Origin: Oceanospirillaceae bacterium
GTDB lineage: Bacteria > Pseudomonadota > Gammaproteobacteria > Pseudomonadales > Balneatricaceae
Assembly (NCBI GenBank): GCA_002686055.1
Contig: NYZU01000008.1
Coordinates: 1-64,000 of the forward strand
Reading direction: 5' to 3'
DNA length: 64,000 nt
Shown: in pieces, positions 29,343 through 33,460 of the stretch
How positions within the stretch are numbered: position 1 is the first letter of the stretch
How the letters are laid out: every line of letters begins with the position of its first letter
Program-made: the position numbers and the translations under genes
Notes under the pieces: generated by a model
What the model was told of the DNA's origin: nothing
Seen by the model: only the letters and a program-made list of their open reading frames with translations
Database searches by the model: none

Positions 29343-32300
29343 TTATTTAATCTTCACTTCTTTGACACCAAGATTTCTTATATTGGCGGCATATTTTCGA
29401 CTAACGGGCAATAAGGCTGAATTTTTACCGTAAACCAGTTTCAGCTTCATATCTCGCTGATGCCTTTCGATACTATGAATAAATTTTGGATTGACTAGAT
29501 AGGATCGATGAATCCTCAGTAAATACTTATCTCCAAAGTATTGATTTAAATTATCAATACCAATACGCAACAAAGGTAGTGTGCGACCATTATCTAAATG
29601 CACTCTACAATATGGCGCGTCAGCTGTGACGTAAGCCAAAATATGTTTATATTGTAAAATGGTGTTAATGGCTTCAATAACATTTGGTTTAGCAAGGACT
29701 TGAGCCTGACTGTTCAAATGAGTTTTTATTTGACTAGCAATATGTTGCAAATAAGTGAAATCAGTTGTGTCAAACTCAAGCAATTCTGCCTTGCGCCAGA
29801 ATAACAAAGTGTAATCTGGCAAATCCTCAATCCGCCACAATAACAAGTGTGATGCTTGACGGCTTATTTTGTAAATGTTTAAGGCATGAGAGGTAGCCAA
29901 ATTATTCAGTACCAAAATTTGACAATAATTTTCATTTTTGGACTCGTTGATACTCGACTCTGTAAACAACTTATCAATGTCATCTCCAGGTAAGTCCCAA
30001 TCGGGGTTATCAGGATAACTATGCACAGCTTGACCTTGATGGAAAAGTACACTGGCCTGCGCATAACTATGTTGGTGACCGATTGCAAAGGCACTTTTTA
30101 AAAGCTCAGACTTGTCAGTTATTGCAGTAATTTGGGTGGCAAAGACTTTTAGGGATTGTAAGCGTCTATTAGCCAGCAATAACTGTAAATGTTGGTTTAC
30201 ACGCAGTAAGATTTCTTCCCGCGAAAAAGGTTTAATAATGTAATCGTTGGCACCACAATCAAAGCCCTCTGTTAAATCACCCGATTGATGCTTACCAGTA
30301 ATAAAAATGACAGATAAAACCGTCTTACTATATTGTTGTCGCAACTTACGACAATATTCGAAGCCTGAAATATCGGGCAACATAACATCCAACAAAATAA
30401 GATCTGGCAAACGTCTATGTATTTGTTCTGCAGCTTCAGCAACATTAGCAGCTTGACGAATATGATAACCAGAGTTAACTAACTGCATTTGAATAAGATA
30501 ACGCAACATATCGTCATCATCGACAATTAATAAATCAAAAGGTTGTTGCTGTAGACCTAAAGGTTTAATTGCATTAGCATCTGGCATAGCTAATTGTGAT
30601 AACTTGTTTGCTGCTTCCAAGCCCACTTCAGAACCATATTGCCAGTCACGTGGCAAACTTAAAATAAAGCAGTTTCCTTGCCCGGGTATTGAGTCTATGG
30701 ATAAGGTGCCATTGTGTAAATCAACTAATTGCTGGGTCACTGACAAGCCTAAATATGAATCACGCAGATCAATTTTATTAGCAGTTTGATCTTCCTCTAC
30801 TGGTGCGGACATACTGCCTAATTGTTCAGGCTCAATACTTTTATCAGTGATTCTTACATACACCATATCCTTATGATCAAGGTCCTCTATACGTAAAACA
30901 ATTTCACCTGTATGAGTAAACTTGATGGCATAACCAACCAAATTATACAAAATCTGATAGAGCCGATTTTCATCAGCTAAAACCGTGGTAATTGACGATA
31001 CTTTTTGGCTGATAAGCGCAATGCCCTTAGCGTTAGCGATGGGTTTATATGCCTTTAAAATATGCTCAATAACTTTATTGACATTAAGCGGCCTTAAAGA
31101 AAGACTTAAATGACCATATTGTAGATGTGAAGCATCACGAATATCATCGATTAGGTTGTCTAATTTATGGGCACTTTCAAATGCCAACTGCAGGTGTCTT
31201 TGATGGTCACTAGGCAAACGATTATCCGCTATTACCTGACTAATTAACCCCATGGTAATACTCAAAGGCGTTCTCAGCTCGATAGTTGTATTGCTTAATA
31301 CGGTATCTTTGATTTTATGTGCCTGTTGCAGATTTTCTATAGCCAGGTTCTGCGCCTCTTCCTTAGCCAGACGTTCAGCTCGGAAGTCATCAACTAAATA
31401 AAGCGCAAAAACCATAATGGCAATTAATGCACCCAACATCCAACTATTATCAGTTATGACATTGGCATTAAGCCAACCGATTCCTACACCCAGTTTTAGT
31501 GAAACAAATAGAAAAAATAGGCTCCAGCCTAAAAGCAAATAAAACGCCGCACGTTTATTTTTCTGATAGCCCTTTAAAAGAGCTGTTATTACAGTAATAA
31601 AATAGCCAAGAATTAATCCGTAGTACAAATGAAGAAAATACTGACTAGGCACTAAATAAACGGCTAGGTACCATATAGCCCCAAGACCTATTACACATAA
31701 CAAACTCTTTGGCGACCTTTGGAAATAAGTATATGTGCGCCGTAACCAAAACCAGAAAGCCACCAAACCTAAGAAACTTAACGTAAAAACACCAAGTCTA
31801 AACATCAAGCTTGTTTCCGGTAAAAAACTACTATGGGTAAAAGGTGCCAAACAATAAATTGGACCTAAGCAAAAACAACCTGCCAAAATCAGATCTGACT
31901 TAGGAGCGAAATTACCCAAATTAACAAATGAACGCGAAAACTGAGCAGCGGTAAATGTAACCAATCCTATTGCTAAAAATAATGTTGCGTAAGGAACCCC
32001 CAAGGCACTCGGCCATAAATAATTGAAGATAAGATAATTGGTTGGAATCGGTAAAAACACAAGTGTAGACAGAAATAATACATAATATAGATAGTTTTCT
32101 TGTCTAAGGAAAAGATAAACACTCAGATTAAATAGGAACATTATTATCAGAGCACCGTAATACAACCCTAAACCATGGTAGTCATTTTTAATCTTGTTTA
32201 CCGAAGTCGATATTTCTCTTAAGTAGAGTGGTAAAGGAAATTTTTTATTAGTATTAGCGATGCGAAGATAATAAGTCTTAGTCGAACCATGCTCTATTTT

Positions 32301-32735
32301 TAAAGGGAATATAAAATGGTGATGGGGGATAGCACGCTGTTTTAAAGGTACAGACATATCGTTACGGATAGGCTGATAATTCCCATTGGCCAGCGGCTTG
32401 TAAAGTAGCAAATCACCAACACGTGGAACGGCTAGCTCTAAAAACCAAAATTCTATTGCGCTTTTGTTCGTAGTACTAAAACGTACCCAAAAAATATCAT
32501 TATCACGACTTAAATTAGCCTTTTCCCCTATGCCAGTATTAAATGCACCATCGGGTAAAGCGAGAATATCTGAAAAAGACATGGCTTGGGATGAATTCTC
32601 AGCGGAATCTACCAACCATTCGATCTTCGGTGCAACATAGTATTCGGAACTGGAATCACCAATAACGAGTTGGGTAGCAAAAACATACTCGCTAACAAGA
32701 AGCAAAAAAAAACTTAGCAAGTATTTTGTATTCAT
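29343..32735 (-). CDS. 7TMR-DISM sensor / degenerate histidine kinase / receiver / LytTR DNA-binding hybrid protein
   Basis: Signal peptide + DISM extracellular domain + 7 TM; H-box NTTIELRTPLSI; degenerate HATPase; REC LLIVDDDD...LLLDVMLPD...FITGK...IIKPF; C-terminal LytTR (LPLLRIGIDNLNQYFGDKYLLRIHRSYLVNPKFIHSIER). Confidence 0.88.
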   Translation of the reverse strand: MNTKYLLSFFLLLVSEYVFATQLVIGDSSSEYYVAPKIEWLVDSAENSSQAMSFSDILALPDGAFNTGIGEKANLSRDNDIFWVRFSTTNKSAIEFWFLELAVPRVGDLLLYKPLANGNYQPIRNDMSVPLKQRAIPHHHFIFPLKIEHGSTKTYYLRIANTNKKFPLPLYLREISTSVNKIKNDYHGLGLYYGALIIMFLFNLSVYLFLRQENYLYYVLFLSTLVFLPIPTNYLIFNYLWPSALGVPYATLFLAIGLVTFTAAQFSRSFVNLGNFAPKSDLILAGCFCLGPIYCLAPFTHSSFLPETSLMFRLGVFTLSFLGLVAFWFWLRRTYTYFQRSPKSLLCVIGLGAIWYLAVYLVPSQYFLHLYYGLILGYFITVITALLKGYQKNKRAAFYLLLGWSLFFLFVSLKLGVGIGWLNANVITDNSWMLGALIAIMVFALYLVDDFRAERLAKEEAQNLAIENLQQAHKIKDTVLSNTTIELRTPLSITMGLISQVIADNRLPSDHQRHLQLAFESAHKLDNLIDDIRDASHLQYGHLSLSLRPLNVNKVIEHILKAYKPIANAKGIALISQKVSSITTVLADENRLYQILYNLVGYAIKFTHTGEIVLRIEDLDHKDMVYVRITDKSIEPEQLGSMSAPVEEDQTANKIDLRDSYLGLSVTQQLVDLHNGTLSIDSIPGQGNCFILSLPRDWQYGSEVGLEAANKLSQLAMPDANAIKPLGLQQQPFDLLIVDDDDMLRYLIQMQLVNSGYHIRQAANVAEAAEQIHRRLPDLILLDVMLPDISGFEYCRKLRQQYSKTVLSVIFITGKHQSGDLTEGFDCGANDYIIKPFSREEILLRVNQHLQLLLANRRLQSLKVFATQITAITDKSELLKSAFAIGHQHSYAQASVLFHQGQAVHSYPDNPDWDLPGDDIDKLFTESSINESKNENYCQILVLNNLATSHALNIYKISRQASHLLLWRIEDLPDYTLLFWRKAELLEFDTTDFTYLQHIASQIKTHLNSQAQVLAKPNVIEAINTILQYKHILAYVTADAPYCRVHLDNGRTLPLLRIGIDNLNQYFGDKYLLRIHRSYLVNPKFIHSIERHQRDMKLKLVYGKNSALLPVSRKYAANIRNLGVKEVKIK

Positions 32736-33340
32736 ATTTTATTATTTATCATTATTTAGTTTCCGTAAGGTATAAATTACATAAAAAAGCTACACAAAAC
32801 CAACTCAAATTATACTTTTTATCATAATAATGCAAATGTAAATCATACTCAATATGATCTTAATTTGCTATTAACGTACTAATGAAGACTATTGAAAAAT
32901 TTTAATTAAAAAATATTATTTATAAAAATCAATATATTAATAGTTATATAAGACCAATAAAAAAATATATCTTACCCACCAGAACCAAACAGAACTAAAA
33001 TTTTTTATAATTGAAAATATAAAGACCATTCAAACATAAATATATTAAGTCATAGATATTATATTTTTCATATATATCATTATGTTAAGGGTTATAACAT
33101 AACAAATTAGCAACATTGAGTTTGCTCAAGTGCCATTATTGTCCAAAATGTCAATTCATATTAGCGTTGGCAACGTGTAGATGTAGATACCTTAGTTACG
33201 TGGTTACTTGCTAGCGCTGATATGAGGATCAGGGATGATCCACTTACCCATTTTTGCCCAGCATTCGTTGCCGAATTTTATATACAGCGTTAGCAACACA
33301 TTGAATAGATTTGCACGATAAGCATACTGGAAACAAAAAA

Positions 33341-33376
33341 GGCGGTTCAACATATGCGTTGAAACCGCCTTTTTTA
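33341..33376. terminator. Bidirectional rho-independent terminator downstream of tRNA-Ala
   Basis: AAAAAAGGCGGTTCAACATATGCGTTGAAACCGCCTTTTTT. Confidence 0.85.
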
Positions 33377-33384
33377 TACAAATT

Positions 33385-33460
33385 TGGTGGAGCCTAGCGG
33401 GATCGAACCGCTGACCTCAACACTGCCAGTGTTGCGCTCTCCCAGCTGAGCTAAGGCCCC
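33385..33460 (-). tRNA. tRNA-Ala (anticodon GGC), CCA encoded
   Basis: GGGGCCTTAGCTCAGCTGGGAGAGCGCAACACTGGCAGTGTTGAGGTCAGCGGTTCGATCCCGCTAGGCTCCACCA; full cloverleaf. Confidence 0.97.

Follow-up and report, generated by a model that had tools for sequence, protein, structure and literature searches.

P0001 from an Oceanospirillaceae bacterium is a putative hybrid transmembrane transcription regulator in which the kinase core has lost its catalytic residues. Judging from its sequence, it unites membrane segments, two-component domains and a DNA-binding domain in one protein; the receiver and the LytTR domain are retained, and close relatives have intact kinases. We lean toward the interpretation that P0001 is a hybrid TTR, ChiS- or HTCS-like, of which the kinase core has turned into a structural transmitter. 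If so, P0001 would offer a natural example of a hybrid two-component protein that lost the kinase step and kept the sensor, the receiver and the DNA-binding output. Relatives with intact kinases allow comparison, so that phosphotransfer-independent signaling by a kinase fold to a tethered DNA-binding domain would become testable. P0001 combines features so far known separately and is not a new kind of protein.

Domain organization of P0001

The gene starts with ATG and occupies positions 29343-32735 on the minus strand of the window, i.e., the 64,000-nucleotide stretch of DNA that was analyzed, with a frame that is uninterrupted over 1130 codons. These limits, and the codons of Ile485 (31281-31283) and Tyr602 (30930-30932), had been placed exactly in an initial annotation. 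The 1130-residue product consists of a 7TMR-DISM part, a pseudo-histidine kinase, a receiver, a linker and a LytTR domain. In Pfam terms, the order is DISMED2, 7TM, HisKA, HATPase_c, receiver, linker and LytTR, and all six domains scored above the curated cut-offs, matching the layout of 7TMR-DISM, receiver and LytTR that was proposed earlier.

All protein features are encoded on the minus strand. A hydrophobic N-terminal segment, by hydropathy a likely signal peptide (residues 1-27; 32655..32735), is followed by a periplasmic 7TMR-DISMED2 sensor (residues 45-172; 32220..32603; PF07696, E 1.2e-20). The 7TM module (residues 188-453; 31377..32174; PF07695, E 5e-22) shows hydropathy peaks over 188-453, and the best stretch of the PF07695 match covers residues 189-332. 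With both Pfam models above cut-off and the supporting hydropathy, P0001 has the features of a 7TMR-DISM receptor. The cytoplasmic part comprises HisKA (residues 476-540; 31116..31310), HATPase_c (residues 588-696; 30648..30974), the receiver (residues 736-846; 30198..30530; PF00072, E 2.4e-26), the linker (residues 851-1030; 29646..30185) and the LytTR DNA-binding domain (residues 1034-1122; 29370..29636; PF04397, E 7.3e-10).

The C-terminal assignment as LytTR, also present in the initial annotation, was corroborated by the PF04397 match above cut-off and by profile matches to AgrA LytTR structures; LytTR structures were the only convincing profile matches of the C-terminal part. A ChiS-family DNA-binding domain as output was ruled out, since the C-terminus is LytTR. 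The linker contains no known domain and can be aligned with the proteins P0002-P0004 described below. It had been called GAF-like (about 851-1030), but no Pfam GAF model matches it, even at E = 10. Single-sequence structure prediction of the part from receiver to LytTR was uninformative (mean pLDDT 34) and was not used. Within the window, LytTR-type direct repeats paired at a distance of 12 or 13 bp did not occur above chance.

Catalytic residue loss and relatives with intact kinases

The acceptor histidine of HisKA, His485, is replaced by Ile and the second N-box asparagine, Asn602, by Tyr, as had been noted before. The G1 and G2 regions indeed read TDKSIEP and DSYLGLS; neither the glycines of G1 nor the first ones of G2 remain, and the F box is degraded as well. 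P0001 lacks the acceptor His and the intact N and G boxes that characterize an active hybrid histidine kinase. To place these changes, we aligned the kinase-receiver core of P0001 with that of 46 related hybrid kinases (47 sequences). All 46 relatives keep the acceptor His, the second Asn of the N box and the glycines of the G boxes at the sites checked; the residues of P0001 at these sites include Ile, Tyr, Ser and Tyr. This indicates that the loss is specific to P0001 and not due to chance.

The losses lie on the catalytic boxes. Of the columns with a conservation of 90% or more among the relatives, P0001 keeps eight of ten in HisKA (the exceptions being the His and one further column) and 14 of 21 in the HATPase domain, where the seven losses all fall within or close to the N, G1, F and G2 boxes. 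Pfam scores are reduced as well: P0001 reached 30.9 bits for HisKA versus 57-59 for P0002/P0004, and 64.4 versus 106-107 for HATPase_c, which is about half to 60% of the values of these relatives. The share of P0001 in the total tree length is higher for the kinase (0.17) than for the receiver (0.124), and P0001 sits on a long terminal branch for both. Some kinase features persist. The N-box Asn598 and Lys605 are retained, and Asp631 may correspond to the conserved G1 Asp if the box carries a 2-residue deletion, the G1 alignment being ambiguous.

The receiver is better preserved. Pfam, motifs and alignment agree on an acidic pair (Asp739/Asp740), a phospho-Asp (Asp783), Thr813 and Lys835, i.e., the residues expected of a receiver domain. 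The initial annotation was thus right about an intact receiver, except that the motif reads ILLDVMLPD and not LLLDVMLPD. Eight of 11 conserved columns are kept, the other three carry conservative substitutions (M to L, A to G, L to I), and the Pfam score shows little drop (92.5 bits versus 100-104 for P0002/P0004), although this domain too is on a fairly long branch. From these residues, the receiver is probably still phosphorylatable, either by another kinase or by a small phosphodonor.

Three proteins, P0002-P0004 (loci L077, L078 and L081 in genomes G133, G069 and G184), have the same kinase-receiver-linker-LytTR order as the cytoplasmic part of P0001. They all come from one other family of the order to which the P0001 host belongs. 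The identity between P0001 and P0002 is 29% over about 680 residues, extending into LytTR. The sensor in P0002-P0004 is dCache/HAMP, not 7TMR-DISM (the dCache match of P0002 falls just under its cut-off), and the kinase His, Asn and glycines are kept. No other protein with this cytoplasmic layout was found in a core search of the order or in a profile search over 265 genomes; that profile was built from P0001-P0004, so the scores of these four carry no meaning. According to the initial annotation, homologues of the same architecture with His and Asn mostly retained would mark P0001 as a decayed single case; the only three proteins of the same layout do keep these residues, but their sensor differs. 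The occurrence of LytTR-fused proteins with intact kinases implies that fusion to LytTR does not in itself go along with a dead kinase and that the loss is derived in the P0001 lineage. A membrane-tethered LytTR factor that combines a dead kinase with an intact receiver, as proposed, agrees with the sequence of P0001, but not with that of its LytTR-fused relatives, which have intact kinase residues.

Wider searches gave no closer counterpart. A search with the C-terminal part across 392 genomes of the order and 369 of the class yielded no match over the full length, the full protein matched genome contigs at the receiver level only, and a plasmid search returned none. Among LytTR matches in 117 genomes of the family, P0001 alone belongs to an ORF of more than 546 aa. 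Further long LytTR ORFs from the sample of the class (L071-L075) were rejected, since they match the core, if at all, via the receiver, and none has a P0001-like kinase core. Other near core relatives, read by eye, have a ChiS-like, GGDEF or second-kinase domain at their end, and the ChiS-resembling type is found in several of the nearest. The position of P0001 in the core tree is not firm (support 48-61).

Genomic context and distribution

The gene lies between a nitroreductase gene and gltX and adjoins a tRNA-Ala (window 29343-33460), from which it is separated by an AT-rich upstream region of 27% G+C (32736..33384, strand not assigned). An Rfam scan of the upstream region found only the tRNA. 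The gene itself has a G+C content of 37.4%, the lowest of the 20 window ORFs measured, the 19 others having 40-47%. Thirteen of the 14 other genomes of the genus yielded no copy. The remaining one (G003), of another species, carries a fragment of 101 aa at the end of a contig, located at the same site beside gltX and tRNA-Ala, with 93 of 101 residues identical (92%). Low G+C, patchy presence and the tRNA neighbor make lateral arrival before the split of the two species likely, though not proven; the alternative is that the gene was lost in the remaining species of the genus.

The fragment is N-terminal, covers the sensor only and ends before the kinase. By the NG86 method, its dN was 0.038 and its dS 0.160, giving a dN/dS of 0.24 from 101 codons of the sensor with 18 nucleotide differences. 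The corresponding values were 0.016, 0.227 and 0.07 for gltX, and 0.013, 0.289 and 0.05 for fhs. The sensor fragment is constrained, yet less so than these neighbors.

Signaling models and known systems

In the structural-transmitter interpretation, the DISMED2 domain and the 7TM module would read a ligand or membrane signal, and the HisKA helical dimer together with the degenerate HATPase domain would relay a conformational change to the receiver, the linker and LytTR. The LytTR part would then bind or release promoter DNA while the protein is still membrane-bound, independently of kinase activity, and its output could be tuned by receiver phosphate from another kinase or a small phosphodonor. 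A stricter version, which we hold only tentatively, is a purely conformational one-component switch, with the kinase core selected as a mechanical transmitter from 7TM to LytTR and the receiver serving as no more than a structural or trans-tuned clamp. It is somewhat doubtful that the receiver is mainly driven in trans, i.e., that Asp783 receives its phosphate from another histidine kinase while the 7TM/pseudo-kinase part is a docking or tuning module, like DivL with DivK~P. All residues for receiver phospho-chemistry are intact, DivL provides a precedent, and three of the nine HATPase_c matches in the recovered genome, besides P0001, look like histidine kinases (several of the remaining ones are GyrB/ParE-, MutL- and HtpG-like), which makes a phosphodonor in trans possible. 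However, there is no adjacent kinase gene, no Hpt domain was found in the recovered genome, which is 72% complete, and the three kinases have no visible receiver, so that their usual partners would be separate response regulators.

A gene in decay, with its kinase function gone and the protein on its way out without a present function, would account for the restriction to two species of the genus among the genomes compared, for the longest branch in the subtree and for a dN/dS above that of gltX and fhs. We consider this unlikely, since the frame is open, the receiver and LytTR motifs are kept, the losses cluster at the catalytic boxes and the dN/dS is well below 1, though obtained from the short sensor fragment. 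An active kinase that works through non-canonical residues could invoke Asn598, Lys605 and possibly Asp631, but is very improbable with no His at the acceptor position, Tyr for the second N-box Asn, the glycines of both G boxes gone and such changes in none of the 46 relatives.

The structural-transmitter interpretation can be compared with known systems. Activation by ChiS is not known to require its kinase activity, the output of Bacteroides HTCSs is AraC-type, and DivL has a Tyr in place of the His. ChiS of Vibrio cholerae itself binds DNA and thereby activates genes, and 7TMR-DISM versions are reported in the ChiS-DBD family (PMC8092284). Like P0001, ChiS is a membrane hybrid kinase with a receiver and a C-terminal DNA-binding domain, but that domain is different, and the ChiS-like relatives compared here keep their kinase residues. 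Hybrid TTRs are a described class (PMC10269533), and these and hybrid two-component systems share with P0001 the assembly of sensor, kinase, receiver and DNA-binding domain within a single membrane protein (PMC10269533; PMC11253607). In Bacteroides HTCSs, the receiver inhibits the DNA-binding domain (PMC11253607) and control is phosphorylation-dependent, whereas P0001 lacks the catalytic residues. The pseudo-kinase DivL, devoid of kinase activity, acts as the sensor for a response regulator (PMC4211667). It shares the histidine-kinase fold with P0001, but it contains no DNA-binding domain, and the response regulator that it senses is a separate protein.

Two further LytTR proteins were encountered in family f6. 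P0005 (L047:1023-3368(-)), which matches the LytTR region of P0001, and P0006 (L048:1433-4177(+)) combine a GH18-like domain and a membrane segment with LytTR as the C-terminal domain. The catalytic Glu of the GH18 active-site motif appears replaced, and a chitinase-like GH18 gene adjoins the P0005 gene in L047. These proteins are possible membrane-bound, chitin-sensing LytTR regulators.
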